This document shows, in pieces, positions 54,191-63,542 of a stretch of 64,000 bases of DNA. The notes below the pieces were generated by a model that worked only from the letters and a program-made list of their open reading frames with translations, did no database searches and was not told the DNA's origin. Positions within the stretch are counted from its first letter, which is position 1. The number at the start of each line of letters is the position of its first letter. Origin of the DNA: Aspergillus flavus. Taxonomy: Eukaryota; Ascomycota; Eurotiomycetes; Eurotiales; Aspergillaceae. A program made the position numbers and the translations under genes. The DNA lies in assembly GCF_009017415.1 (NCBI RefSeq), contig NC_092406.1:5704001-5768000 (forward strand), written 5' to 3'.

Positions 54191-55428
54191 AACTTCTATG
54201 TACAGTTAGAACTTAAGGCACTTGTTCGGGAAGGATAAATGGACGGACGGGTACGAGTTTAGGGGCTAACAAAACATAAACCCTCCGAAATAAAGGGAAA
54301 ACGGCAAAATGGGATACGCGATATCATTGCAAAAAAGGCAGTGGCTAGGTGTAATAGACTATGTAGCAACTTCGGAGAAATTAGGCTTCATCGCTGGTCT
54401 CAGATCTACTTGGGCGATCCGGTATAGATACTGAGCAAAGTCATAATGACCCAGACACCAAGGGGTCCGTCTCACTAGTGATAATTCTATGCCCATGATA
54501 GAATAACGACTGGTAGACGAGGAATATCTAAATGTGACCAAGCTGCAGTAGAGTGTGAATTAGTTCCTAGTGTATTCTGATATATTTTGTCGCGAGGCTG
54601 GTGACATACTACTACCCAATACTATCCCAAGATTTAAGCGCCGACAAATAGCACATGATTTGACGGGTTGATTATGGGAGCCCTCTATGTGAACTATTGG
54701 TCCTTCAGTAAGTCCACATCATGAGGCTCTGACAATATAACTGGAAACCAAGTTGCTGCATCTCCCCCCAGTCATCAAGAGGTCTGGGGCCACTTGAAAG
54801 ACGGAGTATCAATCTATGTCGACCAAACTAGGGGGTGTAAGTCATCTATTTCCGACTTAGTAGTATCTGTTAACGGACCAGGAACGGCCGTCTGCATAGA
54901 AGGTACGGATGGTTCAGGGTTGACCGTCATCTTCGAACTTAGAGATACACAAATATATACAGAGTGAATGTTTTGCTTGCCCAGATTGAATTTAGGAAGC
55001 AGACTTGTGTAGCCGGCTGGATCTGTACCCTTTTCATGACGTTCGCATCTGGGACTCAGTTCGCTTACATGCATGCTAGCCGGCTTTTGATCAAAACAAC
55101 GACCCTGACAGCTTTCCGAGCCCTCCCCGTCATCCGGAGTGACTCACGATACAAGTCATTGTCAAGTAAAGAGACACCGGCTACAAGTTTGATATACCAA
55201 GACCTGATAATTTGACAAGAATCAACACCCGAGCCGGGAGTCGAGAAGAAGTACTATTTCCCCGCAGTGAATTACGGCCGGGTAACTGCACCCGGGCCAA
55301 GGACTATACACACTCAGCCCGTCGCATATCAAACATATAAAACCCCCCAAGAAGAACAACAAGAAGCCATCCAACAACTAAGATCATTCTCCCATTCCTC
55401 CAAAGCCAAAACCTCAAGATAAACCACC
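54191..55428. promoter_or_regulatory. intergenic region upstream of the HAD gene
   Basis: Divergent upstream region of the kinase-like and HAD genes. Holds the 73-bp duplicate described separately. 55330-55428 is an A/C-rich leader directly before the HAD ATG. No other gene supported. Confidence 0.5.
55012..55084 (+). repeat. 73-bp exact copy of a Zn2Cys6 gene segment, inverted-repeat ends
   Basis: Bases 55012-55084 are identical to the reverse complement of 59953-60025, which lies inside the transcription factor gene. Both ends carry GCCGGCT / AGCCGGC, a 7-bp inverted repeat. Flanking sequences show no similarity, so the match stops exactly at the repeats. Here the segment is in non-coding DNA. 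Confidence 0.9.
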
Positions 55429-56142
55429 ATGTCCAAGCTCACCAACTACCGCCTCCTCTCCTTCGACGTCTACGGTACCCTAATCGACTGGGAAACCGGC
55501 GTCTGGAACGCAATCCAACCAACCCTAGCCTCCAACAACGCGCAAATAACACGATCAGACTTCCTCAAGCTCTATCAAGAGCTCGAAAAATTCCAACAAA
55601 CCAAGACCCCAGACATGCCCTATTCACAACTCCTCTCCACAATCCACCCGCAAATCGCCTCTCGCCTGGCCCTTGACCCTCCTACCGCAGAAGAAAGCAA
55701 CCGCTTCGGTGAATTAGTTGGCGAGTGGCCTGCATTCCCGGATACTGTGGAGGCATTGAAGCGTCTGTCGAAGCGCTACAAACTGGTCGTGCTTTCAAAT
55801 GTGGACCGGGAGTCGTTCCAGAAGACCAATGCTGGAAGCTTGCAGGGGTTTCCGTTTGATTTGGCTATCACGGCGCAGGATGTGGGGTCGTATAAACCTA
55901 ATCTGGCTAACTTTGAGTATATGTTGAAAGCTGTTAAGGAACAGTTTGGGGTCGAGGCGGAACAGGTGCTTCAGACGGCGCAGAGTCAGTTCCATGATCA
56001 TCATCCTGCGAAGAAAGTGGGGCTTAAGTCTTCTTGGATTGAGAGGCCGGGGGCTTTGATGGGGAATTTGGAGGATACGGTTTATGATTGGAAGTTTGAT
56101 ACGCTTGGTGGTATGGCCGATGCTGTTGAGAGGGAGTTGTAG
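55429..56142 (+). CDS. Haloacid dehalogenase type II-like hydrolase
   Basis: HAD superfamily, 2-haloacid dehalogenase-like; a soluble hydrolase. Intronless, 237 aa. Motif I is FDVYGTLIDWE (nucleophile Asp near residue 13), motif II LVVLSNVDRESF, motif III Lys in DVGSYKPNLANFEYML, and a C-terminal variation QFHDHHPAKKVGLKSSWIER, where family members have SNxxD acidic residues. The helical cap (RSDFLKLYQELEKFQ region) fits L-2-haloacid dehalogenases. Motif IV here reads SQFHDH with a single Asp, so activity may differ from true dehalogenases. The cap and core lengths are normal. The gene lies in an accessory neighbourhood and the natural substrate is unknown. Start context (CACCATGTCC) is good. 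Confidence 0.9.
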   Translation: MSKLTNYRLLSFDVYGTLIDWETGVWNAIQPTLASNNAQITRSDFLKLYQELEKFQQTKTPDMPYSQLLSTIHPQIASRLALDPPTAEESNRFGELVGEWPAFPDTVEALKRLSKRYKLVVLSNVDRESFQKTNAGSLQGFPFDLAITAQDVGSYKPNLANFEYMLKAVKEQFGVEAEQVLQTAQSQFHDHHPAKKVGLKSSWIERPGALMGNLEDTVYDWKFDTLGGMADAVEREL

Positions 56143-56583
56143 ACTGGTTTTCTTGATTTTGATATTTCACTAGGGCAAGCTACTTATGTCGATTCACATG
56201 GTACTATCTACAAGACGAGCGTAGTGAATGTCGTAAGTGTAGTCCATTCTCTGCTATATTCTCACATAGTGCGATCTATTACGACATAGCAACTACCGCC
56301 CAAATCCAACGGACGCCGTCTGAAAGGCCACGAAATAGCTAATGTACCTAAGTTGAATTGGAAATTTGGAAGTACTTCCCGGTATACCATACCGGTAATG
56401 TTAAGTCAAGGAGTAAGACCTCGAGTGAGCAGCAAGCTAAAAACCTATAACAAGTGCGGTGTTCCGGGAAAATACATGAGGTTGTTGAGCATACAAAGAT
56501 GTATGTACATACAAAGGTTGTAAACATAGCTCTCCTTTCGGCAGATTGATAACTGTTAAAATTTCAAAAAATTACAACCTGTT
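56143..56583. other. intergenic region 5' of tRNA-Trp
   Basis: HAD gene 3' flank and 5' flank of the tRNA gene. No other feature seen. Confidence 0.5.
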
Positions 56584-56590
56584 GGGGCGC

Positions 56591-56601
56591 TGGCGCAACG
56601 G
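56591..56601 (+). promoter_or_regulatory. tRNA internal promoter, A box
   Basis: TGGCGCAACGG fits the TRGYNNANNNG consensus of the Pol III A box in the D arm of the tRNA-Trp gene. Confidence 0.8.
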
Positions 56602-56610
56602 TAGCGCGTT

Positions 56611-56665
56611 GTAAGTTACCATTACTTTCACACATGAAGAAACCTCATTCTAACAATTATCACAG
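56611..56665 (+). other. spliceosomal-type intron inside tRNA-Trp gene
   Basis: 55 nt starting GTAAGT and ending CACAG, with a branch-point match TCTAAC about 12 nt before the acceptor. Length and all three signals equal those of the mRNA introns elsewhere in the window (48-80 nt). Exact removal rebuilds a five-base-pair anticodon stem. It sits between the A and B boxes. It does not resemble the short introns removed by tRNA endonuclease in position or boundary. Confidence 0.8.
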
Positions 56666-56689
56666 CGACTCCAGATCGAAAGGTTATCC

Positions 56690-56698
56690 GTTCAAATC
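56690..56698 (+). promoter_or_regulatory. tRNA internal promoter, B box
   Basis: GTTCAAATC fits the GWTCRANNC B-box core in the T arm. Confidence 0.8.
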
Positions 56699-56710
56699 GG
56701 GTGCGCCTCA

Positions 56711-56718
56711 TTCTTTTT
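56711..56718 (+). terminator. Pol III terminator
   Basis: TTCTTTTT directly follows the discriminator base; the T5 run is a typical Pol III stop. Confidence 0.75.
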
Positions 56719-58468: not shown

Positions 58469-61079
58469 TCAAACGGGAGCATCCGGGTTTGGAGGGAACG
58501 CTGGTAGTGATAAGTCATCAGGCCAAAGCATGGTTGGCAAGCTTTCGCCAAACTGCATCCCTGTTTCTGGGAGAGATGCAAAAGCCCCAAGCTCCTGAGG
58601 AAAGGAAGAGAAGAATCCGTCAAAAGATCCGGTTGGCAACTGCGCATTCTCGAGTCCAATAGGTTCGGGTTCGTCCCCCACATTGGATGGAGTCTCAGAT
58701 TGCCATAGCATAGCCCAGCGCCTAAACTGGTTGTATCCGACGTCTTGTTCGCCAGTGGCTGTGTCTTCATTTTCAGCTCGGCTGTCCAAACGCCGTGCTG
58801 CGCGCTCAAGCGCCTCAATAACTGCTACTTCTGAACGAGCTGACTGAAGGCCAACACACATCCGACGTATCAGACCCATGCCTTGCGTAAGTGCTCCGCG
58901 TAGCCGCTCCGTTCGTGTGTTCAAACTCTGGGCGATAATGGCCAAGAGCGCCGCACGGCAGGAGCTAAATTCGGTATACGAAACTCGTGCTACACCGACC
59001 GTGTCCTGTAATAATTGACATAGCTCGACGATTCGGAGAGCAGCCTGAACGCAGTCAAAGCACAACATTGCACCAGCATCTACGGTTGAGTCGGAGCTGC
59101 CCTCAACAGAGGCCGATGAGCTTGGCGTGCCGGCAAGAATCAAGGGACGACCCATGTACATGATTATCGTAGCGTATGTGAGTTCCAGGTGGACATTATA
59201 GCGGAAAAGCGGCTTAGAAGGATCCAGGTCACGACAGTGTATATCTTCGGGCAGGGTGGTCCACCAGCTCCTGAGTTCATCGCGTACGTGTAGAAGCTGC
59301 TTAAGATAGATCTGATGAAGCTCTCCCGGACAATTTCGCAGCCGGGATCTAGATATCCATTAAAAAAGATCAGCAGATGGAATGACTCGGTTAGAAATTA
59401 GGTTCCTTACATGATGGGTGCAACCTTCGCAAGCTGCTCAGTCAGCTGGAGAGTAGCAGTAAGATTGGGTAGATTTGTGACCCGGCCAGGGGGACGCAAC
59501 TCGGGTATGTCTTTAGGCATGTCACAGTCTATTTCAGTTGGAGACACGGAGACCGGGCGCCCGTGAAGGATGCTGATCCGTCTATGTTTGGTATAACGTT
59601 AGAGATTATAGCAAGCGTTACTGTATTCCCTCTCACCTATCCAGCGCGTACGCGGACCACCAAAGACGGTTCCGCAACTCAATCGTGCGTGCATCTAAAC
59701 CTTCTTCTCCAAACTGACGATGCATACCGTTCTGAATAGCCATCTTTATGGCAAGCCCAAGATAAGTATAGGCAAGGCCGGAGGTATCAATCGGCATTGT
59801 GTAAACCCCGAATAACAAAAACGCCTGGACAGTTTCGACGGATGCGGTGGTAATAAGGTCGGGAATCAGGCGACATGAGAACCTATAGAGCGCCAGCCCA
59901 ATAGTATCATCAGGTAGGTGATCTTCACCGGACATACTCTGCAAGTATGGAGGCCGGCTAGCATGCATGTAAGCGAACTGAGTCCCAGATGCGAACGTCA
60001 TGAAAAGGGTACAGATCCAGCCGGCGTCGTTGATATCTAGGTACCGATCCTCAGCATAATAGTAGTCTAACTTCTGCCGGAATTCTGTTTCATCGAAATA
60101 GTAATAATTCGTCAGGGTGTATTCAAGAAATGTCTCCAACAAAAAATCTGCAATATGTCGCGGCGGAAAATACTTCCTGGCTGAAGCAATAATTGAACTA
60201 GGAGACTGAAGACCAGTTGCACGGAAAGGATCATGAGCTGTGTGGGAGTCTCCCGTCTGAATACGGTCGTCAGCATACGCATGAGGACATGGAGCAAAAG
60301 AACACTACCATGCTGTCGTCGGGGTCGTTTCCCAGGCTTTGTAATTTCCGGCGGATCATGCGTGAGAAGTTCCAGTGAGAGAATTCCCCAGAGTAGACTG
60401 TAGACGGGTTCCAGGTAAGATATTCTGCATCTGGGGAAAGAGCTATGTCCACCATAACTTACTCATCGTATTCGTGGAAAGCGGGTGAATGGAATAGAGC
60501 TCGCTCGACCCCGGCGCTAAAGTCGAAGGCTTCCTTGAGCTTACTTGATCCCTCTCCAGAGCATCCGCAATGAATTGAAGGTTTGACGGCTCAAATGATA
60601 TATCACCCATGAAATGCCGCACTATCCTTTCGAGACATCGTCCCTTATCTGAGTCTCGTTGCGGGGAGGTGCTAGCTCTATGGTAATGTAAGTTGAGACA
60701 AAGAACTTTTTGACAAATTATTGTTTCACCATACCTTGTGGTGCCATTACTGGCTGGCTGCGGAGGGGCCTGGCTGTACTGGCAGTTTCTCTTGTACCGT
60801 TGGCATCGCAAGCAAGGCATTCCGCCCTGACCTGGAGTAATCAGCAAGTGTAGCAAAAAATATGTGATGAACAAAGTCTACACATTTCTCTTTATGGTAC
60901 CTGCATGGGTTGCATCTAATATAGAGGTAAATTGTCAGCTTTCAACATATAGAGCATATGCGTTCGTTAGTCAAAACTTAGATGAATACTTACGCTCGCG
61001 CGGCCCTCTTCCGCAAAGCGTCAGGAACCCTCGGTCGCCTCCGGCGGCCCACCGGCTTGCTATTCTGAGGCTCTGTCAT
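58469..61079 (-). CDS. Zn2Cys6 transcription factor with fungal-specific (MHR) domain
   Basis: Eight exons: 61079-60994, 60915-60884, 60831-60735, 60677-60463, 60397-60309, 60256-59637, 59581-59411, 59348-58469; 2190 nt, 729 aa. The zinc cluster is assembled across two introns as CNPCRYHKEKCQGGMPCLRC and QRYKRNC, i.e. C-x2-C-x6-C-x5-C-x2-C-x6-C, preceded by a basic stretch (VGRRRRPRVPDALRKRAAR). The MHR region (about 130-520) has YSGEFSHWNFSRMIRRKLQS, PPRHIADFLLETFLEYTLTN, LWWSAYALDRRISILHGRP and WWTTLPEDIH. The C-terminus (GSFDGFFSSFPQELGAFASL and DDLSLPAF) is acidic/aromatic and may activate transcription. The exon 4/5 join uses a 65-nt intron; a nearer acceptor would give an implausible 32-nt intron. 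It lies downstream of, and on the same strand as, a sugar transporter gene, suggesting control of sugar use. Target unknown. Confidence 0.87.
59953..60025 (-). repeat. source copy of the 73-bp duplicated segment, within the Zn2Cys6 gene
   Basis: Lies within exon 6 and codes AGWICTLFMTFASGTQFAYM and HASR in the MHR domain, which reads as normal family sequence, so this is probably the original. Exact match (opposite strand) to 55012-55084. Ends are GCCGGCT and AGCCGGC. Confidence 0.9.
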
Positions 61080-61745: not shown

Positions 61746-63542
61746 TCATGCCTTGTTCGTGCTGTCGTTTTCAGAGCTGTCTTTTTCCAACTCCTTGTGA
61801 GCGTGGCTCAGCACACTAGCCCGACGCACAGCCTCATCCTCAACATCATCCAGCGTATGCAGGAGCTCACCATGCTTGCCATACATGTGAGGCTCCTCAT
61901 TCGCAATACGCACGACCGAGAAGATGCTCTTCGTCTTTCGGAAGATGCGGTCCATTTCTTCCAGCGACCGACGGGTTGTCTCCGGATAGAAGAAGAATAC
62001 AACCGGAACGATGAATGCGTTACTGTGATTGGTCAGTACGAAGGGTCTGACTGCAGAGACTGCAAGAAAAACTTACATAACGGCGAAAATAATGTAGGTT
62101 TGGTAGTCAATGTTATCGAAAGCGACAGGGGTGATCATAACCACGAGGAAGTTGAAGATCCAGTTCGACGATGTCGCTAGGGCATTGGCTGGAGCACGAA
62201 TCTTCAAAGGCACAATTTCGGCGGGATACAGCCAGGTCATTCCCAGCCAGCCGATAGCAAAGAACGTATTGAACACAAATAGGAAGACAATGCAGGCGAT
62301 GTTGGCTTCCGAGGTTTTGAGACTAGCTGTGATGGCGAGGATAATCATCGAGATTGACATACCCGCGGCACCGAAAAGCATCAGCGTCCGGCGACCAAAT
62401 TTTTCGATCGTGAACACCGCAATCCAAGAGGCGATGAAGTACTCGGTTCCGTTGCATGCCGCAATCAGTCGAGAGTTGATTAGGGTCATACCCATCTGCT
62501 CTTCCAACACAACCGGGATATAGTACGTGATCAGATTGATGCCGGAAATCTGCTGGAACATCTGGTTGACATAGGCCAACACGGTGCGGTGGAAATGACG
62601 GTCTTCATCCATGGTGAACATATCCTTGAACGAACCCTTAGCCATCTCCAAAACGGTCGCCTTGATAGCCGTGAACTCAGTCTGCAAGAATGTGGGATCG
62701 GTTCCGTCGCCTAACAAAGCCCCCAGCACTTCTTTCGCTTCATCCTCTCTGCCCTTAAGCACAAGCCAGCGGGGAGATTCGGGAAGGAACATGACAAAAG
62801 CCAGGATGATAGCGGCAAAGAAGATCTGGAAAGCCAGTGGGAAACGCCAGGCGACCTCATTGGGGTCGGCAAAGAGCAAACCGAAGTCGATCCAGTAACT
62901 AATAGTAATACCACAAGTGATCATGGCACCCTCGATCATGACCAGTTTACCACGATGATTGGATTTGCAGCACTCAGACTGCCAAGTGGGCACGGTGGAT
63001 GTGTTCATGCCGTTTCCTAGCAATTCAATATTAGCTGAGACTTTTCCCCTGGCGCCTTCCGCTACTTACCGAATCCAGTCACCAGACGTCCAACGATCAG
63101 TTGGGGCAGCTGGTACGCGGTACACTGCAGTAGAGCTCCAATGACCATGATGAAAGAACCGAGAAAGATAGTTTTACGTCGACCAAGCCAATTTCCAACC
63201 CAGATTGTCGGGATAGATCCTGCAAAACATCCTAAGTTGTACGCAGCGACAACAATACCTGCGGTCCAGTTCATTAGCTCCAGCGGTCTCCTACCACGGG
63301 TGGTAAAAAAGGTGCAACTTACCTTGGCGAGTAGATTGGGTACTCTGTTCGGCCTGGGTGAGACTATCATAGTACGCACCACTGGTCGCAATGGTGGGGA
63401 AATATTTGATAAAGGACTGAAGGGTCAAAAGACCACCGGTGACACCCTGATCATAACCGAATAGTAGAAAGTCCATACCAGCAATAACACCGATGGCGAT
63501 TTGCAGGGCGTTGCCCTGAAGGCCCAAATACCTGCGACCCAT
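61746..63542 (-). CDS. MFS sugar transporter (hexose/pentose type)
   Basis: Plasma-membrane proton-coupled or facilitative sugar carrier of the major facilitator superfamily, 12 predicted membrane segments. Exons 63542-63323, 63258-63070, 63016-62077, 62022-61746 (introns 53-64 nt); 541 aa. Family signatures: FLLFGYDQGVTGGLLT in segment 1; NWLGRRKTIFLGS; VGRLVTGFGNGMNTSTVP, completed by splicing; LPESPRWLVLKGREDEA; NQMFQQISGINLITYYIPVV (QQxSGxN sugar site); EKFGRRTLMLFGA; YPAEIVPLKIRAPANALATS; FFYPETTRRSLEEMDRIF. The cytosolic tail is acidic and charged. Substrate specificity cannot be read from motifs alone. The start is the first ATG (MGRRYLGLQ). The same-strand Zn2Cys6 gene downstream may regulate it. 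Confidence 0.94.

Follow-up and report, generated by a model that had tools for sequence, protein, structure and literature searches.

Probable spliceosomal introns in two nuclear tRNA genes of Aspergillus flavus

Introduction

U6 snRNA genes have promoters that are upstream or mixed, and mRNA-type introns occur in the U6 genes of other fungi as well as in that of fission yeast. In Schizosaccharomyces pombe, the U6 gene contains an mRNA-type intron, and the RNA, a product of RNA polymerase III (Pol III), is spliced by the spliceosome (Tani and Ohshima, cited in an excerpt of PMC8917221). The locus described here resembles S. pombe U6 in that a spliceosomal intron would lie inside a Pol III transcript, and differs from it in that U6 is itself a part of the spliceosome, whereas here a tRNA gene, equipped with A and B boxes, is the host. 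U6 in the genome studied here gave five matches among the 47 of 2384 candidates that were scored; the two above cut-off are full length and have no intron.

Aspergillus telomerase RNA is a further case of the spliceosome acting on a non-coding RNA, here in 3'-end cleavage (PMC4299874, excerpt). It differs from the present locus in that, as that excerpt describes, the first step alone is used, at a non-canonical donor, and the product is a 3' end.

Introns of tRNA and of mRNA are treated as separate: that is, as differing in position, enzymes and chemistry. Canonical Sen introns, which this fungus has in Thr(UGU) and Cys(GCA) genes, resemble the inserts described here in that they interrupt tRNA genes, and differ in that they sit at 37/38, whereas the inserts that we describe in Trp and Thr genes sit at 28/29 and 32/33 and have a donor, a branch motif and an acceptor; both kinds occur together in one gene, the Thr(UGU) gene on contig 4. 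We know of no spliceosomal intron in nuclear tRNA genes, and a search of open-access titles and abstracts, a scope with most of the subscription literature outside it, found no report of one. If the reading is true, a pair of tRNA genes with complete spliceosomal introns, of which one harbors both intron kinds, would cross the border between the two classes and show that Pol III genes besides U6 are open to spliceosomal introns.

Results

A tRNA-Trp(CCA) gene is split within its anticodon stem

The window, a 64,000-nt stretch of A. flavus contig NC_092406.1, contains at 56584-56710 on the plus strand a tRNA-Trp(CCA) gene in two pieces, with a 55-nt insert between positions 28 and 29 (Table 1). 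The sequence, coordinates and borders given for this gene in the original prediction, which was made from the letters of the window, agree with those letters, and its claim that exact removal of the insert leaves perfect stems is borne out: 21 of 21 stem pairs in the spliced tRNA-Trp are standard, the cloverleaf is complete, and the anticodon is correct. The cloverleaf energy of the spliced tRNA is -26.6 kcal/mol, vs. -24.4 kcal/mol for each of four uninterrupted tRNA-Trp genes of the same genome; minimum-free-energy folding of the unspliced RNA gave no discrimination. We take the A box and the B box core to be such from the consensus sequences, and presume, likewise, that the two motifs 5' of the gene are possible TATA-like and start-site motifs.

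Automatic tRNA detection fails at this locus. ARAGORN in default mode reports no tRNA there and, with introns allowed, mis-calls the interrupted gene (56583-56711) as tRNA-Val(aac) with a 35-nt intron, and an automatic annotation could therefore list a false tRNA-Val at this site. The comparison with and without the insert that had been proposed as a check gives tRNA-Trp(cca) once 56611-56665 is deleted. At gathering scores, Rfam has no match in the window. Since a standard tRNA finder misses or mis-calls such genes, more of them may be hidden in other fungi.

Table 1. Features of the interrupted tRNA-Trp(CCA) gene (window coordinates) and order of elements in the interrupted tRNA-Thr(UGU) gene.
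Feature	Position	Strand	Basis
Possible TATA-like and start-site motifs 5' of tRNA-Trp, TTAAAATTT and CAACC	56556..56579	+	read from sequence
tRNA-Trp exon 1, 27 nt: acceptor 5' strand, D arm, anticodon-stem bases 1-2	56584..56610	+	sequence, ARAGORN, sister genes
Presumed A box, TGGCGCAACGG	56591..56601	+	read from sequence
tRNA-Trp insert, 55 nt; U2-type spliceosomal intron by signals	56611..56665	+	sequence; single copy in genome (BLAST)
Insert donor, GTAAGT	56611..56616	+	sequence; identical hexamer opens three introns of neighbouring transporter gene
Insert branch motif, CTAAC (next base A); presumed branch A at 56653	56650..56654	+	sequence
Insert acceptor, CAG	56663..56665	+	sequence; insert ends in CACAG
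tRNA-Trp exon 2, 45 nt: remaining anticodon arm including CCA, T arm, acceptor 3' strand, discriminator A	56666..56710	+	sequence, ARAGORN, sister genes
Presumed B box core, GTTCAAATC	56690..56698	+	read from sequence, pattern search
T5 run 3' of tRNA-Trp, probable Pol III terminator	56714..56718	+	read from sequence
tRNA-Thr(UGU): exon 1 end CTTGAC, 55-nt insert, TTGTA, 10-nt canonical intron, ATCAAG	contig 4	-	

The insert has the signals of an mRNA-type intron at exact borders

GTAAGT, TCTAAC and CACAG, noted previously as lying at fungal-intron spacing, are present in the insert, and the borders are exact; the distance from CTAAC to the insert end is 11 nt, both here and in the insert of the Thr gene described below. 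Comparison with the uninterrupted sister genes makes the borders of the Trp insert unique, in that a shift of one base breaks the match, and reveals no target-site duplication at them. ARAGORN also accepts 51-nt and 62-nt excisions at the Trp locus; the 55-nt excision was chosen because no other accepted excision restores the sister sequence. The chance that a 55-mer starts with GTRAGT, ends with AG and has CTRAY 6-20 nt before its end is about 1.5 × 10^-6, as calculated for one insert under an order-1 Markov model of the window with the three signals treated as independent. The longest T run is 3 in the Trp insert and 2 in the Thr insert; runs of four T are absent from both, and so there is no internal Pol III stop and Pol III could transcribe through.

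Both 55-nt inserts fit the introns of the host in length, in donor (GTRNGT) and acceptor (AG), and in CTRAY spacing, with one exception, the AAG acceptor of the Thr insert. A transporter gene at 61749-63542, 5-7 kb from the tRNA-Trp gene, has three predicted introns (64, 53 and 54 nt), all starting with GTAAGT; once they are removed, the product aligns without gaps to P0122 over 541 residues, at 88.9% identity. The window has 33 GTRNGT...CTRAY...YAG signatures, that of the tRNA insert among them, whereas 30 Markov sequences averaged 14.3 and reached 21 at most. Median intron lengths are 61 nt in A. fumigatus and 63 nt in A. nidulans, and among the exact branch hexamers listed for the latter species CTAACA is the most frequent (PMC2483917, excerpt); an excerpt of PMC2467506 places the peak of Aspergillus intron lengths near 65.

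The original reading of the Trp insert as an mRNA-type intron is thus strongly supported by its signals, its exact borders, the GTAAGT introns of the neighbouring gene and the second case. As judged from sequence, the inserts in the Trp and Thr genes are nearly certain to be spliceosomal introns.

A tRNA-Thr(UGU) gene carries an insert of the same kind together with a canonical intron

The second interrupted gene is a tRNA-Thr(UGU) gene on the minus strand of contig 4, at about 4171950-4172090 (L130/L145). It has a 55-nt insert, GTGAGT...CTAACA...AAG, at 32/33 and a 10-nt canonical intron at 37/38, and it keeps A and B boxes and a downstream T run. The sister genes L143 and L144 share this layout, with a 12-nt canonical intron but without the 55-nt insert; these two genes set the insert borders, and GTGAGT and AG fall exactly there. 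Alternative excisions accepted by ARAGORN at this locus are called Ile, Phe or Ser, and the 55-nt excision was chosen by its match to the sister genes. The mature bases of the interrupted gene are identical to those of L143 at 72 of 72 positions, whereas the two upstream flanks (100 nt), although still recognisably related (a score of 36 vs. 8 for the best of 300 shuffles), match at no more than 64 of 96 aligned positions. L144 (contig 3, 3606890-3607190, minus strand) differs from the mature sequence in its discriminator base (T for A), has an upstream flank that scores no better than shuffles, and is given a wrong anticodon by ARAGORN.

The usual acceptor is YAG, and the AAG of the Thr insert departs from it. 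Because CTAAC was a search criterion, the CTAAC of the Thr insert is not independent evidence and is not countable again; the search did not select for the donor or for the AG at the exact borders, and the YAG that it matched lies further downstream.

The two inserts have equal length and branch spacing, which could have indicated a common origin, a possibility that we rejected: they match at 7 of their 33 core positions (shuffle p 0.91), and with no kinship in sequence the inserts are not copies of each other. A mobile intron of the introner type was rejected as well, BLAST giving self matches only for each insert. The sister genes are exact empty sites, which makes the two loci clean cases for studying intron gain.

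Census of the genome

The genome was searched for CTAAC followed by an acceptor and a B box, and GT/GC...AG excisions in the resulting loci were tested with ARAGORN. The main test comprised 100,070 excisions in 164 loci, many of them overlapping, plus the window, with junction hits of up to 110 nt considered; within that length, excisions yielding a junction-spanning tRNA were those of the window Trp gene, which served as positive control, and of the Thr gene. Rows from L029, L030 and L033 were rejected because the excisions merely adjoin intact Gly and Gln genes, and longer excisions in L024, L027 and L034, from a test of 11,613, because they fuse halves of neighbouring Asn genes. The pattern CTAAC-YAG-B box gave 124 matches, of which the 100 listed were all tested by excision; CTGAC-YAG-B box gave 149, with 100 of them listed; for two stricter patterns, 12 of 12 and 16 of 17 matches were tested (C2:926763 left out); and the 28 and 42 rows for CTRAC-B box-TTTT were judged by eye for T-stem pairing. 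The tRNA-like sequences among the census matches are the Trp gene, the Thr gene (L130), an ordinary-looking Glu gene, ordinary Asn genes and a Cys gene with a canonical intron. The census covered CTAAC and CTGAC branch motifs, with 63 of 1246 tRNA candidates scored by Rfam, and all gene counts are lower bounds.

Several further loci came to light. L166 (contig 5, 1499640-1499860) is a tRNA-Cys(GCA) gene with a canonical 37/38 intron of 32 nt; at C7:269619, a row of the CTRAC-B box-TTTT search, the T stem could pair; and near 1500-1560 of the reverse complement of L059 there is a tRNA-like stretch with GGTTCGAATCCCC, rejected by ARAGORN, which is perhaps a tRNA that has decayed or that came from an organelle. 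A search pattern modelled on the split Trp gene had no matches in viral contigs and one bacterial match, judged by eye to be due to chance.

Uninterrupted sister genes and the state of the interrupted copies

BLAST of the genome (37.7 Mb in 8 contigs) detects four other tRNA-Trp genes, a lower bound, all without the insert and mutually identical over 72 nt: three in tandem on contig 1 and one on contig 4. The tandem genes (L006, 1220-2496) lie about 600 nt apart, and their upstream flanks do not align with one another. The count bears on observations named in advance as capable of refuting the original prediction, and these are divided: at least four other intact tRNA-Trp genes exist, which weakens any claim that the interrupted copy is necessary, and the interrupted copy has compensated changes without decay, which speaks in its favor.

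Four bases, at 4, 6, 66 and 68 of the 72-nt sequence, are all that separate the window copy from its sisters. The four differences form acceptor pairs 4:69 and 6:67 in standard numbering, each changed on both sides, from C-G to G-C and from T-G to G-C, respectively. In a million trials of four random substitutions, two compensated pairs with all 21 pairs kept arose at a frequency of 4.1 × 10^-5. Differences limited to two compensated acceptor pairs point to selection for a working tRNA-Trp, yet they give no date for the insert. The same differences provide the window copy with acceptor bases of its own, and its spliced product is therefore distinguishable from the four sisters by tRNA sequencing.

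According to the main alternative, introns or intron-like DNA entered redundant tRNA genes, leaving dead or dispensable copies that yield no useful amount of product while sisters supply the tRNA. We regard this as unlikely, though deserving serious weight. Since uninterrupted sisters are known for both (four Trp, two Thr), neither interrupted gene need work, and a review (PMC4090602, excerpt) gives short insertions into the D or T arm, found mostly in one gene out of many synonymous ones, as a mark of supposed pseudogenes. Dead copies would be expected to decay, however, and pseudogene signs (mismatched stems, drifting exons) were not observed in either gene: the changes in the Trp gene are the two compensated pairs alone, and the Thr exons equal those of L143. 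The splice signals are complete in both inserts, and passive insertion gives no reason for a GTRAGT start and an AG end at exact borders twice. A recent inactivation, or a fresh insertion caught before decay, would give the same picture.

Possible removal of the inserts by other routes

Introns at non-canonical tRNA positions, as in these two genes, are known as ectopic introns from archaea, Cyanidioschyzon and nucleomorphs (PMC4090602 and PMC3978253, excerpts), and the inserts could in principle be ectopic introns of this type, folded as a bulge-helix-bulge and cut by tRNA endonuclease, with coincidental intron-like motifs. The archaeal and Cyanidioschyzon introns, in the accounts of those excerpts, use a bulge-helix-bulge, whereas here there are spliceosomal signals, which the endonuclease route leaves unexplained, and no such fold at the Trp junction, where the insert splits the anticodon stem and a central helix of at least 3 pairs cannot be drawn. 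The Thr junction has no strict motif. A bulge-helix-bulge at the Trp gene, named beforehand as a refuter of the spliceosomal reading, could thus not be drawn; two canonical Thr introns examined as controls also fail the strict motif, and so the test argues weakly. Many nucleomorph ectopic introns, as the same excerpts report, likewise have no defined motif. We consider endonuclease cleavage of the inserts very improbable.

Spliceosomes normally act on RNA made by Pol II, and the dehalogenase-like gene on the same strand ends at 56142, about 440 nt upstream of tRNA-Trp; both facts are in keeping with an alternative in which the introns are spliced within Pol II transcripts that cross the tRNA gene, for example by read-through from that dehalogenase-like gene, with mature tRNA arising indirectly or not at all. 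Such an origin of the spliced RNA seems improbable to us, since A and B boxes and the T run are kept, and since it leaves unexplained both the compensated acceptor pairs and the exact restoration of tRNA by both excisions.

Proposed course of maturation

We judge it fairly probable that both inserts are U2-type spliceosomal introns located in Pol III tRNA genes and that the spliceosome excises them, as it does the U6 intron of fission yeast. Pol III would transcribe exon 1, intron and exon 2 from the intact A and B boxes to the T run; U1 would read GTAAGT in the Trp precursor or GTGAGT in the Thr precursor, and U2 would read CTAACA; and the spliceosome would join the tRNA halves, the Trp anticodon stem being able to form only afterwards. 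In the Thr(UGU) precursor, the 10-nt intron at 37/38 would additionally be cut out by the tRNA endonuclease pathway, and a single pre-tRNA would thus be handled by two splicing machineries. The most likely course, held with moderate confidence, is that the spliceosome removes the inserts and that the transcripts then undergo normal tRNA processing; splicing of the Trp and Thr precursors into working tRNA is likely on the evidence of the genes themselves, and the products would then be used in translation. We lean, with rather less assurance, towards the broader proposal that the spliceosome acts as an enzyme of tRNA maturation on the transcripts of at least two nuclear genes, with Thr(UGU) also maturing via endonuclease and ligase.

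Neighboring genes

The transporter in the window has a 98% match to A. pseudonomiae. A sigma-70-type scan of the window was set aside as of no bearing for fungal DNA. The gene at 55426-56142 encodes a product of the 2-haloacid dehalogenase type, with 95% to A. transmontanensis and A. novoparasiticus, the best among named sources. These two species and A. pseudonomiae belong to Aspergillus section Flavi, and so the matches place the genome in that section. A 73-nt stretch of a transcription-factor-like gene on the minus strand recurs, perfectly and in inverted orientation, upstream of the dehalogenase-like gene (window 55012-55084 and 59953-60025; 1.5 kb from tRNA-Trp); this copy looks like a fresh short templated insertion, perhaps of a kind that could also bring introns.
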